From: Methanocorpusculum sp.
Lineage (GTDB): Archaea; Halobacteriota; Methanomicrobia; Methanomicrobiales; Methanocorpusculaceae
Length of the DNA stretch: 64,000 bases
Direction: 5' to 3'
Assembly (NCBI RefSeq): GCF_030655665.1
Contig: NZ_JAUSPQ010000008.1
Location: forward strand, 248,001-312,000
A model generated the notes under the pieces. The model saw nothing but the letters and a program-made list of their open reading frames with translations. It had not been told where the DNA came from and did not search any database. How positions within the stretch are numbered: position 1 is the first letter of the stretch; every line of letters begins with the position of its first letter. Shown here one piece after another: positions 1 through 60,368 of this stretch. Both the position numbers and the translations under genes were made by a program.

Positions 1-1163
1 GAGATGTCGATGACATTCTCTAGACCCATGGTAAAGAGCGAGACTTTTCCCTCTTTCAGGACCTCGAGTGTCGTCTCAGGTTTCTGACTGATGACGACCC
101 TCCCGGTCACATCCTTGTTGTCTGCCATCACTTTCAGTCCGCGTTTCTTTGCAAGACTGACTGCTTCTCCGAGAGGGAGGCCGCGCAGGTCAAGGAGTTC
201 CGGGACCGGTCTGACGGACAGAACTGTTTTTTCGGTTGAAAATTTGGCGAGCTCTATTCCCCGCGTGACCGCTCCGGTCCGCGTGTGATGCTGATTGCTT
301 TGGACGTCGCGTGTGTAAATATACAGGCCGCCCGAGCCTTTTCCGGCTGTTCGTACCGTAATCGTCCCTTCTCTTCTCGGTTTCTGGCGTTCCTGAAGAA
401 CGTAGAGTTTTCCTTCTGTATGGTCCCTGATGTAGGTGGACGCGGTCCGGTCGATCCGGAATGTGTTTTCCCGCAGGCAGAATAGCATATGCTCGACCGA
501 GTCTGTGCACGTACAGTCGATCTCGGCATGATTTTCCTGATATCCTTCTGCGGTGATGATCAGTTCGGAAAAGATCTGCATCCCCTCCTTCACCTCCGTC
601 GAGAGGTCCGAGGTCACCTTCGCATTGGTCGAATCCGTGCTGGAAAATACCTGTTCTATCCGGGTAATGGTGTCGCCGTGTTTCCAGCGGTTCATGATCC
701 CAAGACCGTAGATGACTTTCCCTAAAATCGCTCCGCCTTTTGCGGCTCCGTGATCGCCCATATGTTCCCTGCGGGAAAATGTGAGGTAGGCGTTCTTCGA
801 ATCATAGCCGCCGGAACCGAGACATACGACGCCTCTTTCATAACGGTATGGTGTTTTGTCGGGCGTGAACTCCTGAGGGAATGGTCCAAACGATACCGCA
901 TTTCTGTCTTCGAAGTGGACACGCAGATTCTGATCGACCTCTCCCGTAGGCAGAGGGAAGGGTGTTTTTTTCGCAAGTTCGATGACGATGTCCCCGGCGC
1001 TTGTGGTCAGGCGGAGATGCGGCGTCATTTCCCGGGAAACGCTTCCGGGTAAAAGAAGAACGACAGAGGTCCCTTCCGGCTGTTCCGGGAGGAGATCTTT
1101 GAGGGTTGTTGTTTCTGGAACGGTTTTCTGCTCGCCATTGAGAAAAATCCGGATGTCAGTCAT
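1..1163 (-). CDS. mmp3: Methanogenesis marker protein 3 (Mmp3), C-terminal part cut by window edge
   Basis: The reading frame opens with ATG at 1163 and runs 387 codons to the window start without a stop, so the C-terminus lies outside. I recognise the sequence as the methanogen marker Mmp3/UPF0288 family, once described as a predicted cyclophilin-like prolyl isomerase. The first ~70 residues look like a small beta-grasp (MoaD/ubiquitin-like) domain; a conserved stretch follows with SGGYDSKNAYLTFSRREHMG at about residues 117-136. In the family, Mmp3 belongs to the ATP-dependent complex that reductively activates methyl-coenzyme M reductase. It begins 9 bases after the stop of atwA, which encodes the ATPase of the same complex, so the two are probably co-transcribed and functionally paired. 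No odd truncation is visible within the part present. Confidence 0.85.
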   Translation of the reverse strand, partial: MTDIRIFLNGEQKTVPETTTLKDLLPEQPEGTSVVLLLPGSVSREMTPHLRLTTSAGDIVIELAKKTPFPLPTGEVDQNLRVHFEDRNAVSFGPFPQEFTPDKTPYRYERGVVCLGSGGYDSKNAYLTFSRREHMGDHGAAKGGAILGKVIYGLGIMNRWKHGDTITRIEQVFSSTDSTNAKVTSDLSTEVKEGMQIFSELIITAEGYQENHAEIDCTCTDSVEHMLFCLRENTFRIDRTASTYIRDHTEGKLYVLQERQKPRREGTITVRTAGKGSGGLYIYTRDVQSNQHHTRTGAVTRGIELAKFSTEKTVLSVRPVPELLDLRGLPLGEAVSLAKKRGLKVMADNKDVTGRVVISQKPETTLEVLKEGKVSLFTMGLENVIDI

Positions 1164-1172
1164 GATCCTGAC

Positions 1173-2942
1173 CTACATCTCGAACATTTCGTCGGTGGTT
1201 TCATGCAGGGCTCCCTCGGTCGCTTCTGCCTCAGGGGCTCCTCCTGCAAGGGTCACCTTTTTCGGGATCCCGGTTTCTGCCCGTGCCCGTTCCTTCTCGA
1301 CCGCATTTCTCATAACGATCTTTTCATCCTCGGAAAGGTTGTTCAGCACTTCGTGGGTCGGACCAATGGCGATGATCTTTCCGCCGCGCATGAACATGCA
1401 CCTGTCACAGACATCACGCACGAATTCCATGTCGTGGGAAACGATGACGAACGTTTCTTCCATCTCTTCTCTCGCATGCATGATGGAGTGCTTGACATCG
1501 ACTTTGGTGATGGGATCCATCGTTCCTGTTGGTTCGTCGAGGAGAATGATGCGCGGTTCACGGATAAGGATCTGTGCGAGAGCGACTCTGTGCTTCTCCC
1601 CTTCTGAAAGGCTTGCCGGCAGTCTGTGAAGAACATCTTTTGCCTTCTTATCGGTGAATCCTGCCATCCGAAGGGTGATGAGTGCTTTGCGGGTCGCAAG
1701 TTCTTTGGGGAACTCTAAGCCGATCGCGTCGGTCAGGTTGTCGATGATCGTTCTGTGGGGATAGAGATCGTATTCCTGGTGAAGGAGTCCGATGTATTGT
1801 TTTGCCCTTCCCCGGAAGAGATATCCGGGTTTTGACATATCGACCCATTCGTCGCCGACCCTGACTTCGAGTTTACCGGATGTCGGCTCGTAAAGACCGG
1901 CGATCATCTTTGAAAGGGTGGTTTTACCTCCGCCGGATACGCCGATGATGCCAAAGATCTCCCGTTCATTGATCTCGAAGGTGATATCGTTTACCGCGTT
2001 GATGACACCCCGGTCAACAGCGATGAATTTTTTGAGCAGATGTTCGGCACGGACGATCGGGTCGCCGAAAATCTGGTCGGTATATACGCGGTCGTCGTGA
2101 TATCCCTTCATGAACTCCTCGATGATCTCGTCAGGAGTGCCGATCTTGGTGATCTTTCCGTCATCCAGAAGAACAGCCCTGTCACAGACATCTTCAAGAA
2201 CCTGGGAAAAGTGGGAGGTGACGATCATTCCCATATTGTTTTCCTTGGCAGCTTTCTTTAACAGATCATGGACGATCCTCGCTGTTTTCGGATCAAGTGT
2301 TCCTGTCGGCTCGTCCGCACAAAGGAAGAGTGGTTCACGGGCAAGCTGACGGGCGAGGACTACTCTCTGTTTTTCACCGCCGGAGAGGTCACGTGAAATG
2401 TGCATCATTCTGTGGGAGAGTCTGACTTCGTCGAGTAAGTCGGCTGCCCGGCTGATGGCTTTTTCTGAAGGATAGTTTATGTCGTCAAGTGCACGAAGCA
2501 CGTTTTCAATGACACGATCGTCCCCGTAGAGCGCAAAGGTCCGCTGGAACATCAGCGAGGTCCTTGCCATTATTTGTGATTTGAGTTTCTCGTTTTTGGG
2601 TGCCCAGAAATCAACATCTTCTGCAATAAGTGTTTCGCCGCAGGCAGGACAGGGTTTTCCTGCATTGCTCTTGAACTCGATTTTGCCGCATTTTGGACAG
2701 CGGGAGATGTGATAGATGATTTTTCCGGAAGTTGGGGCCTGGTCGATTCCTCGGATCAGATGGATAAGTACGGTTTTGCCGCATCCGCTTCTGCCGATTA
2801 CACCAACGATCTCTCCTTCAGAGAGTTCCAGATTGATGTTATCCAGGACCCTGACCATTTCGGTTGATTTCTCGTCACAATCATCCGTAGAGACTGGAAA
2901 GTCCATGATGAGGTCCTTTATCGTGATAAACGGGGTTTTCAT
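1173..2942 (-). CDS. atwA: Methyl-coenzyme M reductase system component A2 (double ABC ATPase)
   Basis: This 589-residue soluble protein has two ABC ATPase domains and no membrane segments. Walker A motifs are GRSGCGKT (about 50-57) and GVSGGGKT (334-341); signature motifs are LSGGEKQR (186-193) and LSEGEKHR (445-452), each followed by a Walker B with DEPTGT. The first domain carries an inserted zinc-ribbon-like pair, CPKC (82-85) and CPAC (98-101). Length and arrangement fit AtwA (component A2), which binds ATP during reductive activation of MCR-bound F430. It precedes mmp3 by 9 bases on the same strand. The acidic, Glu-rich tail (last ~20 residues) is low complexity. A general ABC transporter ATPase is unlikely because no permease is nearby and the partner gene is mmp3. 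Confidence 0.93.
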   Translation of the reverse strand: MKTPFITIKDLIMDFPVSTDDCDEKSTEMVRVLDNINLELSEGEIVGVIGRSGCGKTVLIHLIRGIDQAPTSGKIIYHISRCPKCGKIEFKSNAGKPCPACGETLIAEDVDFWAPKNEKLKSQIMARTSLMFQRTFALYGDDRVIENVLRALDDINYPSEKAISRAADLLDEVRLSHRMMHISRDLSGGEKQRVVLARQLAREPLFLCADEPTGTLDPKTARIVHDLLKKAAKENNMGMIVTSHFSQVLEDVCDRAVLLDDGKITKIGTPDEIIEEFMKGYHDDRVYTDQIFGDPIVRAEHLLKKFIAVDRGVINAVNDITFEINEREIFGIIGVSGGGKTTLSKMIAGLYEPTSGKLEVRVGDEWVDMSKPGYLFRGRAKQYIGLLHQEYDLYPHRTIIDNLTDAIGLEFPKELATRKALITLRMAGFTDKKAKDVLHRLPASLSEGEKHRVALAQILIREPRIILLDEPTGTMDPITKVDVKHSIMHAREEMEETFVIVSHDMEFVRDVCDRCMFMRGGKIIAIGPTHEVLNNLSEDEKIVMRNAVEKERARAETGIPKKVTLAGGAPEAEATEGALHETTDEMFEM

Positions 2943-40811: not shown

Positions 40812-42218
40812 CTATAACGTCTGCGGGGAATCCGCTTTAATGTACTGTTTTCCACGCTCTTCTCCAAAGATCTCCCGGAGGATTCCTTCTGCCGAGACAG
40901 GCATAAGATGGGTGTAGGTACCAAGAGCATTGTTGAAAACGACCCCGTCCTTTCCGTCGATTATCCCGGTCCCCCGCGAGAGCGAGTAGGTGAATCGTGT
41001 GTCCGGATCCATAACGACGCCGCTGTAATGAAACTCATGACCCTTGAACGGATATGAGTTCCCGGAAAGGACCGCGGTCCCTTCCACATATCTGAGCGTT
41101 TTTCCGGCAGGCATCACGGTGTCGCCGGCAAAAACCCCGCACATTGGGTACGTCGCGTCCTCGCTTTTCCCCATCCAGCCTTTTTTCAGAGTGATCGACC
41201 GAGTGAGGTACATCAGGCCGCCGCATTCCGCATAGATCGGGACCCCCGCCTTTGCTTTCGCAAGGATCGCCTCCCGCATCAAAACGTTGTTTGAAAGTTC
41301 CTCCGCGAACATTTCGGGGTACCCTCCGCCGAAAATATAACCGTCGGCCTCCGGGAGAGTGTCGTGGAGCGGACTGAACTTTGTGACTTCAGAGCCCTGA
41401 CTGCGCAAAACAGATTCCAGCTCACCGTAGTAGAAAGTGAACGCCTCGTCGAATGCGACCGCTATTTTTCGGGTCGGTTTCGGGCGTGAGGCGAGGGACT
41501 CGGTGACCCGGTTTGGTTCCGGGGTCACATCTTCTGCGAGGGCTTTGATCGCGTCAAGATCCACATGTGCGCCGACATGCCGGATGATCGCTCCGATGGT
41601 TTTGGCAAATCCCGGGTCCCGCATGCCTTCTACAAACGGAACAAGACCGAGATGCCGCATGGAAAGATCCATCTCCGGGCTTCGGGGAACGGCACCGAGA
41701 ACGGGGATCCCGCAGTAATATTCTATTGCCTCGGTCGCTTTCTGCACATGGTGTCCTCCGCCGGTATTGTTGAGGATCACGCCTTTGATCCGAACTTCCG
41801 GGTCGAATGCCTGGAATCCCTTTACGAGAGCGGCCGCGGACCGGGTGATGCTCCGTGCATCGATCACGAGGATCGTCGGGAGGGAGAAGCGTTTCGCGAT
41901 GGAGGCGGTACTGCCGACATCGGTGAACGAGTCGCGCCCCTCGTAAAGTCCACGGACCCCTTCGACGATCCCGATGTCCGCACCTTTTGCCCCGTAGGAG
42001 AAAAGACCGGAGAGTTCCTCGTCGGTCTGGACGAAGGTGTCCAGATTATAGGACGGACGGCCCGTGACGCCAGAAAGATAGGAGGTGTCGATGTAGTCCA
42101 TCGCGACCTTGTAGGTCTGGACGACCGAATTCTCTGAAAGAAGACCGGCGAGGCCTAGGGTGATGCTGGTTTTTCCGGCGCCCGAACGATCTCCCGAGAT
42201 CAGAAGCGACTTCATCAC
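40812..42218 (-). CDS. cfbB: Ni-sirohydrochlorin a,c-diamide synthase (CbiA family)
   Basis: A 468-residue amidotransferase: N-terminal ATP-binding domain (SGDRSGAGKTSITLGLAG) and a C-terminal glutamine amidotransferase domain with the nucleophile in YAECGGLMYL and a His in GHEFHYSGV. The CbiA family also makes cobyrinate a,c-diamide, but placement between cfbD and the siroheme gene supports the F430 role; one enzyme may do both. Confidence 0.92.
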   Translation of the reverse strand: MMKSLLISGDRSGAGKTSITLGLAGLLSENSVVQTYKVAMDYIDTSYLSGVTGRPSYNLDTFVQTDEELSGLFSYGAKGADIGIVEGVRGLYEGRDSFTDVGSTASIAKRFSLPTILVIDARSITRSAAALVKGFQAFDPEVRIKGVILNNTGGGHHVQKATEAIEYYCGIPVLGAVPRSPEMDLSMRHLGLVPFVEGMRDPGFAKTIGAIIRHVGAHVDLDAIKALAEDVTPEPNRVTESLASRPKPTRKIAVAFDEAFTFYYGELESVLRSQGSEVTKFSPLHDTLPEADGYIFGGGYPEMFAEELSNNVLMREAILAKAKAGVPIYAECGGLMYLTRSITLKKGWMGKSEDATYPMCGVFAGDTVMPAGKTLRYVEGTAVLSGNSYPFKGHEFHYSGVVMDPDTRFTYSLSRGTGIIDGKDGVVFNNALGTYTHLMPVSAEGILREIFGEERGKQYIKADSPQTL

Positions 42219-43276
42219 ATGCTCCTTAAGACGGCTCCGAACTCGCTTTCAACGATATTGTGGACGCCCAGCGTCTTTGGATGGAGATCCACCTCGACCA
42301 TGACATGGGCATGTCCCTGCTCTTTGAGGGGGAGGACCTGACGAGGGCCGTTTGTCACGGAAAATACCGTGATGCCTGCGAGGGCGGCGGGCGAAACTGC
42401 GTGCGGGACCCCGACGAGAAGAATGAACTCGGGTTTCACCTCAGCGATCCGGTCCGCGATCCGCGATCCGTTTCCGCCGTACTCGTCCAGTGCCCCGATA
42501 AGCTCGGGATGGAGGCCGCGTTCGTTCAGCTCCGCAAGAATCATCGCGGCATCTCCTCTGACTTTTGGCAGACCGCGGGCTTCGAGGTTTGCGACATAGG
42601 TCACGTTCGCTTCCGGTACGCATTCGTGCACTGCGCAGAGATGGTCGGCGAACATGTATGCCGTTTCCTTCTTTGCATTCATTATCGCCATGCCTTTTTT
42701 GCCGGAACGCAGCAGTGCAGCGAGTTCGGCAGCGGCAATATGTTTCAGATCGCCGCGGGACGGGGCAATGTAGGTCTTGCAGGCCGCTCCCCGTTCCCGT
42801 TCGGTTAGGTTCGCAGAGGCAAGGACGCCTCTCTGCCGTTCGAGTTCCTCTTCGGAGATCCAGCCGACTTTTTCCGCCGGTTCAAGTGCGGCAATGACCC
42901 CAGCAATGTTCTCGCGGAATCCTGCATGGATCGAGACCCCGATCGCCGGGGTCGTGATGCCGGACGCTTCGATGCCGGCTTCGAGATCCTCGCCGATGAT
43001 CATCGAGACACAGGTCCCGACAACGGCGATGCGGCGTGGGGAGAACTCCTTTTCCGCATACCTGAGAACATCTTCCAGGATATTCTGCCCGCCGAAGATG
43101 AACTCCTCGTCACCGAGCGAGGTCGTCAGAACACGGATCCCGTCCTCTTCCAAGAGTCTGGCGTGCTTGAATGAACAGCCTGACGGGCCGTGAAGGATCG
43201 CGAGATCGACGTTAAGATCCCGAAGGGTGTAGAGGGCTGCAACAATGGAGCTTGGACGCGGTTGAACGTAACGCAT
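42215..43276 (-). CDS. cfbD: Ni-sirohydrochlorin a,c-diamide reductive cyclase, catalytic subunit
   Basis: A 353-residue NifD-like protein. Cys in HGPSGCSFKHARLLEE and VVGTCVSMIIGEDLEA are the likely [4Fe-4S] ligands shared with the reductase partner-facing dimer. CfbD with the NifH-like CfbC carries out six-electron reduction and lactam ring closure in F430 synthesis; cfbC is not in the window. Overlaps cfbB by four bases and follows cfbE by two. Confidence 0.93.
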   Translation of the reverse strand: MRYVQPRPSSIVAALYTLRDLNVDLAILHGPSGCSFKHARLLEEDGIRVLTTSLGDEEFIFGGQNILEDVLRYAEKEFSPRRIAVVGTCVSMIIGEDLEAGIEASGITTPAIGVSIHAGFRENIAGVIAALEPAEKVGWISEEELERQRGVLASANLTERERGAACKTYIAPSRGDLKHIAAAELAALLRSGKKGMAIMNAKKETAYMFADHLCAVHECVPEANVTYVANLEARGLPKVRGDAAMILAELNERGLHPELIGALDEYGGNGSRIADRIAEVKPEFILLVGVPHAVSPAALAGITVFSVTNGPRQVLPLKEQGHAHVMVEVDLHPKTLGVHNIVESEFGAVLRSM

Positions 43277-43278
43277 TT

Positions 43279-44424
43279 TTACCTCCAGGTTTTTACGGCG
43301 AGAAGAACTGCCGCGTTGTGTTCTTTTGCTGCGGAAAGCGCCTGTGACTTTGATGCGGCAAAGTTCAGGCCTCCTGACTTGCTCACGGATATTGTATGGA
43401 TCGGGGAGATATCGGCGATCGTTTGACGGATCGCGTCATCCTGAAATCCCTCACAGACGGCCTTATGTTCCTCGCCGATCACGAGAACGATCTCCTTCTC
43501 GGGGACCAGCCGACGGAGATAGGCGGCCGCGGCGAGCGTGGTCTCCCGGGTCGTTCCGCTGTTTGCGTTGTCGAGGAACGGCACGCCGTCTTCAATATAA
43601 TACTGCATCCTTCCTTCGATCGCAGTGAACTCTGCAAGCCTGCCCGGATCCAGTCCGAGCAGAAGACCGGCGGCCGCGGCGCATTTGAGCGGTTCGCGGT
43701 ATCCGGCAAGGGTAAGGAGCGGATTTTTGAACGATCCGCCGTCCCAGGAAAGCACGTCGCCTTCCACGGATACGAGATCGTCGATGACATGCCAGCCGGC
43801 TTTCAGCGGAATACCTTTCGGGACGAGAACGGTCTTGCATTTTGCAAGGGATTCGAGTTTTGCGGCAAGGGCACTCTTCTTTCCGGCGGCGATCAGGTAA
43901 TCGTCCGGGGAGGTCAGAACACCAAGGGTCCCGATCCCGGTGACTCCTGCGGAGACTTCTGCAACGAGCCATTCAGCACGCTGCGTCTTTGCCCCGCCTG
44001 CGGCGAGAAGGACGGAGGCCGGCGTGATGCTCTTTTTCCAGAGAAAGGTCCCTTCCGGATAAACATAGGTCCCTCTGCTGGTGTGAAGCACGCCTTTTGT
44101 TTCAAAAAGGGACGCGATCGCAAAAGAAGTAGTCGTTTTTCCCCGTGCACCGGTCACTTCAATGACCGTCGGCGGAAGTTCGCCGGCGAGCCGGCGGGTC
44201 ATTTCATGATGGGAGATGACCGGGGTTTTTGTATCGAGGAGGGGATATGCCGGATCGAGATGGACCGGGGAGGTGATCAGATCATATTTCCGGGATGCCG
44301 CCTCTTCGGGCGTGAGACCGACGCCGCGGTAGACATCCAAAGCGTCCACATCATCGCCGTTTCGAAGAAGGGCTTCTGCAAGGATCGTTCCGCCGTGGAT
44401 CGTATCGAGAACGAGGACTTTCAT
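43279..44424 (-). CDS. cfbE: Coenzyme F430 synthetase (Mur-ligase family)
   Basis: A 381-residue Mur-ligase-like protein with the P-loop VTGARGKTTTSFAI near residue 92 and DNANSGTTRETTLAAAAY in the C-terminal half. It closes the carbocyclic ring in the last step of F430 synthesis, using ATP. Overlaps cfbA by four bases. Confidence 0.92.
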   Translation of the reverse strand: MKVLVLDTIHGGTILAEALLRNGDDVDALDVYRGVGLTPEEAASRKYDLITSPVHLDPAYPLLDTKTPVISHHEMTRRLAGELPPTVIEVTGARGKTTTSFAIASLFETKGVLHTSRGTYVYPEGTFLWKKSITPASVLLAAGGAKTQRAEWLVAEVSAGVTGIGTLGVLTSPDDYLIAAGKKSALAAKLESLAKCKTVLVPKGIPLKAGWHVIDDLVSVEGDVLSWDGGSFKNPLLTLAGYREPLKCAAAAGLLLGLDPGRLAEFTAIEGRMQYYIEDGVPFLDNANSGTTRETTLAAAAYLRRLVPEKEIVLVIGEEHKAVCEGFQDDAIRQTIADISPIHTISVSKSGGLNFAASKSQALSAAKEHNAAVLLAVKTWR

Positions 44425-58386: not shown

Positions 58387-59320
58387 TATGGATTCCCGTG
58401 AAACTGACAAAGATCTGCGTGATGCACAGAATTTGCCGTATGACCCGGACACACTCCGAAGAATCAATGAGCATCCCTGTTATAGTCAGGACGCCCGACA
58501 TGCGTTCGGCCGGTGTCATGTAGCCGTTGCGCCGAAATGCAATATCCAGTGTAATTACTGCGTCAGGGATTACGACTGCGTCAATGAGTCACGCCCGGGT
58601 GTTGCGAGCGAGATCCTCGCACCTGGGGACGCTTTGGAGCGGATCGATGAAGTCGTTGCCCGGATGAAACATATTAAAGTCGTGGGGATCGCAGGACCAG
58701 GAGATCCGCTTGCAAACGAGGAGACGTTTGAGACGCTTCACCTTGTCCACGAAAAGTATCCTGACGTGATCTTGTGCATCAGCACAAACGGTCTGCTTCT
58801 TCCGGAAAAGATCGATCTTCTGGAAAAGTATGGGGTCAGAAATATCACGGTCACCCTGAATGCGATCGACCCCTCAATAGGCGAGAAGATCTACTCGTTC
58901 GTTGAGTATCAGGGGAAAAAGTATCACGGGCGTGAAGCTGCTGAAATTCTGCTGAAAAACCAGCTCCTCGGTATCGAAGAGGCGGTAAAACGCAAGATGC
59001 TCGTGAAGATCAATACCGTGTACATTCCCGGCGTAAACGACGAGCATATCCCTGAGATCGCAAAAAAGGTCGGAGCCATGGGAGTGTTCAACTTCAATAT
59101 CATCCCGCTGATCCCCCAGTATAAATTCAAGGACGTTGTTCCGCCGACCAATGCAGACAAGACACGGATGCACGAGCTTTGTGCACCGTATGTTCGTCAG
59201 ATGCGTCATTGTCAGAGATGCAGGGCAGACGCGGTCGGAATTCTGGGCAAGGATGTCCAGAACGAATTCGGCTGCTGCGGTAAAGGCGACGGTTCCGGGA
59301 AAGGATGCAGCGGCGAGTGA
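58387..59320 (+). CDS. nifB: NifB-type radical SAM protein (Fe-S-C cluster assembly)
   Basis: A 311-residue radical-SAM enzyme. The SAM cluster motif is CNIQCNYC (C51, C55, C58), and the C-terminal HCQRCRADAVGILG is typical of NifB. There is no NifX extension. ATG 58387 is chosen because the 58163 extension adds about 75 residues of non-family sequence. NifB builds the carbide-centred [8Fe-9S-C] precursor of nitrogenase cofactor. No nifHDK genes are in the window. Confidence 0.92.
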
Positions 59321-59528
59321 TCCATTTTTCGGAAATGGCTCCCTGGCCCCTTTCTATTTTTCGGGCGTATTTGCTTTTTTTCTTCCGTTCGTTTCCTCTC
59401 TACCCCAACAATTAAAGCCTTTACCTACTAATAATAATGTACCTTACATACACCCGCCCCACGCTTCACAGGTTTGGCGGACAAAAACGGTTAGATGGGG
59501 AATCTGGAAATCTTCCCATTATATAACA

Positions 59529-60368
59529 ATGATATCAAAAATACCGGCAGAGCCCAAGGCTACGGAAAAGTCTGTGAGGCTCTCAACACTCTCGGGTATA
59601 TTCTATCCAAAAAATGAGCCTGAGCTGAAGGAGCTTTTATCTGCTCTTTTTGCATCTACGGTGACGTCTGTTTCGGATCCATACGGGATACTCGTCCCTC
59701 ATGCAGGGTATATTTATTCGGGACAGACGGCAGCATGCGGGTATGCAAAGATCTCTCCTGCATTTGCCGGGACCTTTGTTCTGATCGGTCCAAGCCACAC
59801 GGGAGTGGACACCTCCACCTCGGATATGATCTGGGAAACGCCGATTGGAAACGTCCTCCCGGATCTTGATTTCATCGAAGCCCTGAGTTCATCCGTACCG
59901 GTGGATAATGATCTGATCTCGATAAAGGAGAACTCTCTCGAAGTTCAGATACCCTTCATCCGGTATAGGTTCCCGAAGGCCAAAATCGTCCCGATCCTGA
60001 TGGGCGATCAGTCCCCACGCGGAGCAGAACGGGTCGCTCAGGCGGTTTTGTCTGCTGCCAAGACGACAGGGATCCGCCCGATCATCATCGCATCAGGCGA
60101 CGGTTCGCATTATGTTCAGGCAAAAATCGCCGAGCAGAATGACTTAACGGTCCTTGCAGCCATACGAAATCTAGACACGTCCGCCTTCTATGATGCACTG
60201 TCGAGACTTCGTCCCTCCATGTGCGGATTCGGCTGTATTGCCGCAATGGCAGAGATTTGTGCATCGTTCGGCGCAAAAGAAGCCCGTGTTATTTTATATC
60301 AGACATCCGGGGATGTCACTGGCGATTTGACCGAAGTCGTAGGATATGCTGCCATGGAAGTGGTCTGA
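59529..60368 (+). CDS. MEMO1-family protein (AmmeMemoRadiSam B)
   Basis: A 279-residue MEMO-like protein with VPHAGYIYSGQTAACGY near 60, GPSHTG near 90, EVQIPFIRYRFPKAKIVPIL and ASGDGSHYV; the His-rich non-haem-iron-type site is kept. Members are often next to radical-SAM and AMMECR1 genes; here nifB precedes it by about 200 bases. ATG 59529 is preferred to the very long 59136 frame, which overlaps nifB. Confidence 0.88.
   Translation: MISKIPAEPKATEKSVRLSTLSGIFYPKNEPELKELLSALFASTVTSVSDPYGILVPHAGYIYSGQTAACGYAKISPAFAGTFVLIGPSHTGVDTSTSDMIWETPIGNVLPDLDFIEALSSSVPVDNDLISIKENSLEVQIPFIRYRFPKAKIVPILMGDQSPRGAERVAQAVLSAAKTTGIRPIIIASGDGSHYVQAKIAEQNDLTVLAAIRNLDTSAFYDALSRLRPSMCGFGCIAAMAEICASFGAKEARVILYQTSGDVTGDLTEVVGYAAMEVV

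Follow-up and report, generated by a model that had tools for sequence, protein, structure and literature searches.

The nifB gene of the Methanocorpusculum genome examined here probably has the supply of MCR activation, by way of McrC and Mmp7, as its conserved job, and probably serves nitrogenase in this organism as well. Across the phylum, the distribution of the gene supports the view that nifB tracks MCR rather than nitrogenase. The hypothesis is already published, NifB having been proposed in 2025 as the likely [8Fe-9S-C] source for the MCR activation complex (PMC12176620); added here are a large co-distribution test with a denominator, an mcr-nifB gene cluster (genome G019) and two kinds of exception. 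The co-distribution and neighbourhood data agree with the published hypothesis and support it, short of biochemical proof.

Cryo-EM of the Methanococcus maripaludis activation complex disclosed three [8Fe-9S-C]-like clusters held by McrC and Mmp7, the carbide of which awaits spectroscopic validation, and NifB was reported to be essential in methanogens without nitrogenase (PMC12176620). The preliminary description of this DNA had also said that the complex is reported to carry nitrogenase-like Fe-S-C clusters. An additional function of nifB had been considered possible by Lie et al., and a 2011 survey counted a NifB homologue among the methanogen-specific proteins (PMC3087415). For NifB homologues, the use of SAM and two [4Fe-4S] clusters to build [8Fe-9S-C] is established biochemically.

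The nifB gene and its surroundings

The window, which is the whole stretch of 64,000 nucleotides analysed, carries the following genes.

3..1163, minus strand: mmp3, MCR-associated protein, cut by the window edge (TIGR03268, 265.2 bits, cut-off 234.45)
1173..2942, minus strand: atwA, MCR activation component A2 (TIGR03269, 831.7 bits, cut-off 517.1)
40812..42218, minus strand: cfbB, F430 biosynthesis (NF033195, 599.4 bits, cut-off 560)
42215..43276, minus strand: cfbD, F430 biosynthesis, nitrogenase-like but not nitrogenase (TIGR03282, 472.1 bits, cut-off 268.4)
43279..44424, minus strand: cfbE, F430 synthase (NF033197, 290.4 bits, cut-off 250)
58388..59320, plus strand: nifB, 310 aa, radical SAM protein that builds the [8Fe-9S-C] cluster (TGA ending at 59320)
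59136..60368, plus strand: Memo-family protein, 3' of nifB (PF01875 and TIGR04336, match starting at residue 150)

An intact nifB had been placed at 58387-59320; the gene is indeed intact, and its ATG is at 58388, one base later. The protein scored 370.6 bits with TIGR01290 (NCBIfam equivalog, whole protein; cut-off 343.65), and its closest solved relatives are NifB structures, namely 6y1x (E 3e-126), a NifB-type radical SAM protein (PDB), 7bi7 and 7jma. In M. acetivorans NifB the ligands are nine Cys and one His, comprising a CxxxCxxC motif for the SAM cluster, three Cys and one His for K1, and three Cys for K2 (PMC7145814). Alignment with these positions recovered all ten ligands in the window protein (residues 31, 44, 51, 55, 58, 64, 130, 265, 275 and 278), the CxxxCxxC motif and the K1 and K2 sets each being complete. 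Judged from its sequence, the gene is a genuine, intact and ordinary nifB. It is present in single copy in the source genome, where a second, overlooked nifB was ruled out, none being found.

The neighbours of nifB are a gene for a TPR protein on one side and, on the other, the Memo gene, the true start of which is probably near 59530, past nifB, followed by genes read as those of the mevalonate pathway. Mmp3 and AtwA, previously put at 1-2.9 kb, and the F430 genes said to lie in the window, here cfbB, cfbD and cfbE at 40.8-44.4 kb, were all recovered as profile matches over cut-off. Closeness of nifB to the MCR genes was considered as evidence of a link and rejected: as nifB sits 55 kb from atwA and mmp3, the window offers no linkage evidence.

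Nitrogenase genes elsewhere in the source genome

A profile search of the source genome (1.81 Mb, 98% complete), of the kind advised in the preliminary description for nifHDK and nifEN, located a nifH-I1-I2-D-K-E-N operon on contig C4 at 139-149 kb, nifB being on contig C8. Four genes of the operon were over cut-off (nifH 444 bits, nifD 694, nifK 434 and nifE 613), the nifN-like gene scored 274 bits, under the cut-off of 327, and nifI1 and nifI2 were named by reading. The earlier statement that nifHDK are absent is correct for the window and incorrect for the genome. The locus also holds an AnfO-like gene, and a homocitrate-synthase-like gene adjoins nifH. The operon carries no nifB, and the window gene lies neither inside nor beside nifHDK; since the operon exists, the window nifB could serve nitrogenase. 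No NrpR-type operator (GGAAN6TTCC), taken as a mark of nitrogen control, was found near nifB, but the search is uninformative: its positive control failed also, the sole exact site in the nif locus being intragenic.

Two further NifH-like genes occur in the source genome, on contigs C6 and C4, each accompanied by two short nitrogenase-like genes of PF00148 (L025, 4021-6986, and L026, 4537-7676). The gene on C6 is CfbC (425 vs 402 bits), and the other set comes after an apparent ABC transporter, as named by reading.

Distribution of nifB, mcrC and nitrogenase genes

The search for nifB, mcrC and PF00148 covered 392 genomes of one phylum, all of them 90% complete or more; the methanogen phyla Methanobacteriota and Thermoplasmatota lay outside it. 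Matches to PF00148 were classed as NifD-level (E < 1e-100) or CfbD-only (about 1e-8 to 1e-26), and intermediate nitrogenase-like hits were kept separate. Two of the control genomes, presumably those of the two methanogens among them, also had nifB over cut-off.

Where CfbD only or no PF00148 match was present, nifB occurred in 65 of the 67 genomes with mcrC vs 6 of the 140 without it (Fisher's test, p = 6e-44, on genomes that are not independent and counts inflated by shared ancestry). Because of this dependence, contrasts within groups weigh more than the p value. Genus g38, in an Archaeoglobi-like family, counts six genomes: five have no nitrogenase and carry mcrC, CfbD and nifB, and in G013 (99% complete) all three genes are missing; in family f15 all three are found in G019 and none in G010. 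Within the genus of the source organism, nifB was present in all ten genomes and NifD-level hits in two. Retention of nifB without nitrogenase, which the preliminary description had suggested checking, was observed both in the 65 genomes above and in the eight members of the genus that have no NifD-level hit. Another 88 genomes with mcrC carry nifB together with intermediate nitrogenase-like hits.

Three genomes of the Archaeoglobi-like family f9 (G107, G097 and G126) gave strong PF00148 matches (to E 4e-120) and no nifB, and possibly encode nitrogenase-like enzymes without the cluster maker.

Genes adjoining nifB in other genomes

In G019, mcrB, mcrD, mcrG, mcrA, a DUF1638 gene, atwA, mcrC, a NarI-like gene, an HdrD/TfrB-like gene and nifB follow each other on one strand, with one small opposite-strand gene ahead of atwA; mcrD and mcrG were named by reading. 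The atwA and mcrC genes overlap, nifB starts 5 bases past the HdrD-like gene, and cfbA, cfbD and cfbC lie beyond nifB, after two opposite-strand genes. This genome has CfbD and is without nitrogenase. Its architecture, with a single mcrBDGA and mcrC with hdrDE, agrees with the published description of Methanonatronarchaeia, for which horizontal acquisition of mcr and hdrDE has been proposed, with Methanomassiliicoccales and Methanofastidiosales as the suggested sources of mcr, and suggests a Methanonatronarchaeia-like organism.

In the MCR-bearing, Archaeoglobi-like genome G052, nifB overlaps mmp14, and mmp8, an ATPase gene, cfbA and mtrH are within about 5 kb; the ATPase, with 290.8 bits vs a cut-off of 517.1, was rejected as a true A2 and is designated A2-like only. 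In two Methanosarcinaceae-like genomes (G050 and G011) nifB is 12-54 bases from mmp2, and in G023 an A2 paralogue just under the cut-off is 1.1 kb from nifB. Elsewhere nifB and A2 are tens to hundreds of kb apart, in the cases compared by eye, or on separate contigs. The picture is mixed: nifB adjoins mcr, atwA or mmp genes in G019, G052, G050 and G011, and not in the window.

Genomes that depart from the rule

Three genomes with mcrC were without a full nifB. One (G048) contains a nifB fragment, and another (G273), an assembly of 270 contigs, has nitrogenase with no nifB found. The third, G184, is a real exception to the mcrC-nifB rule. Together with G176 it makes up family f28, both members of which have an MCR-type reductase and neither nifB (L143-L145). 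Radical-SAM hits in this family were considered as divergent nifB and rejected, the best hit in G184 being MoaA and that in G176 reading alike. Because the MCR-alpha homologues score 537-587 bits (G184) and 518-579 bits (G176), below the MCR cut-off of 768, the MCR-type enzymes of f28 are probably alkyl-CoM reductases. Equivalents of McrC C12, H49, C55 and H118 and of Mmp7 C90, ligand positions taken from PMC12176620, are conserved in G184 as read from alignments; in G176 Mmp7 was found and McrC was not. The preliminary description had named two observations as telling jointly against its proposal: the nif operon elsewhere in the genome is real, and loss of nifB from non-diazotrophs that keep MCR-activation genes did not hold in the phylum, bar this one family.

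The opposite exception is provided by six genomes (families f11, f16 and f19) with a NifB-like protein, no mcrC and no PF00148 gene; mcrA was absent from all six, and A2 from the three that were tested. In a nifB scan of named genomes, this clade was represented by UBA148, Met33H and related Methanocellales MAGs, and the Met12 paper reports the loss of Mcr, Mtr and Cfb. Most ligand residues aligned in the Met12/UBA148-type NifB (L041, L061-L066, L106 and L160), the gene of which is often near apparent sufC/sufB and herA/nurA/rad50/mre11, as named by reading. Descent as a relic from a methanogen ancestor is not favoured for the UBA148 gene, which a quick tree places beside bacterial NifBs of the short type, together with an unplaced archaeal MAG, and apart from nifB of the Methanocella-like family f14.

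A haloarchaeon-like genome without mcrC or mcrA (G351; L157, C1:595000-614900, one contig, 67% GC over the stretch) has nifH-nifB-nifD-like-nifK-like genes and a homocitrate-synthase-like gene on the minus strand at about 9992-15820 of L157. They adjoin an apparent molybdate/tungstate transporter, named by reading, and nifE/nifN were not seen in the stretch.

Role of NifB

In the mechanism proposed, NifB would fuse two [4Fe-4S] clusters with a SAM-derived carbide, and the MCR activation complex would receive the resulting [8Fe-9S-C] on McrC and Mmp7; in the source organism the same pool would also reach nitrogenase via NifE and the NifN-like protein encoded on contig C4. We infer both NifB as maker of the McrC/Mmp7 clusters and the delivery route to them. 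That NifB builds clusters for MCR activation besides those of nitrogenase had been put forward on the premise that nitrogenase is missing; the premise holds for the window only, and the second role is supported by the contrast of 65/67 vs 6/140 and by the neighbourhoods. Against it count the nitrogenase operon of the source genome, another client of nifB, the lack of linkage between the window nifB and MCR genes, and the f28 genomes.

It is unlikely that nifB serves nitrogen fixation alone, from a place outside the nif operon, and has no part in MCR activation. The C4 operon, four genes of which are over cut-off, has no nifB of its own, and in M. maripaludis and other methanogens, too, nifB lies outside the nif operon, but nifB persists in the eight genomes of the genus without NifD-level hits and in 65 mcrC-bearing genomes with nothing nitrogenase-like beyond CfbD. 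Those 65 genomes also speak against a quite unlikely alternative, that in organisms without true nitrogenase NifB serves not MCR but nitrogenase-like proteins of PF00148, for instance the pairs next to CfbC and NifH-like genes; CfbD, moreover, is described as being without the cluster (PMC12176620). This alternative draws on the 88 genomes that combine nifB with intermediate hits and on methylthio-alkane reductase, a nitrogenase-like enzyme able to use a NifB-type cluster (PMC12552129). Very unlikely is a reading in which methanogens need NifB for a different client, a protein not yet described, and its link to MCR is indirect: both kinds of exception agree with it, NifB being kept by UBA148/Met12-type archaea without MCR or a nitrogenase-like gene and missing from f28 beside an MCR-type reductase, but McrC and Mmp7 structurally hold clusters matching the type of the NifB product, and G019 joins nifB to atwA and mcrC.

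Tentatively, the observations might be read jointly, with MCR activation as the ancestral and general client of NifB in the phylum, and nifB lying in the mcr cluster of G019 and perhaps moved along with it. In f28 the McrC/Mmp7 clusters would then be replaced, or made by a route independent of NifB, and UBA148/Met12 would have an [8Fe-9S-C] client yet to be described. Should NifB supply MCR activation, biological methane and biological nitrogen fixation would both depend on a single radical-SAM cluster maker; this would have a bearing on which of the two came first, and no engineered methane pathway could do without nifB. The two exceptions, f28 and UBA148/Met12, are concrete places for testing the nifB-MCR rule.

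Comparison with known systems

Like the solved methanogen NifB proteins (6y1x, 7bi7, 7jma and 7jmb), the window protein is a radical SAM protein of the stand-alone type, some 300 aa long, matching over its full length with identical ligand residues; no structural difference is apparent in the window copy, the activity of which is predicted only. The source genome encodes Mmp3, A2 and McrC, as does M. maripaludis, in which the MCR activation complex was described (PMC12176620), but here the system is known from gene content and neighbourhood alone. MarB of the methylthio-alkane reductase systems is also a NifB-type protein with a client other than nitrogenase, but that client is the nitrogenase-like MarDK and not McrC/Mmp7 (PMC12552129).
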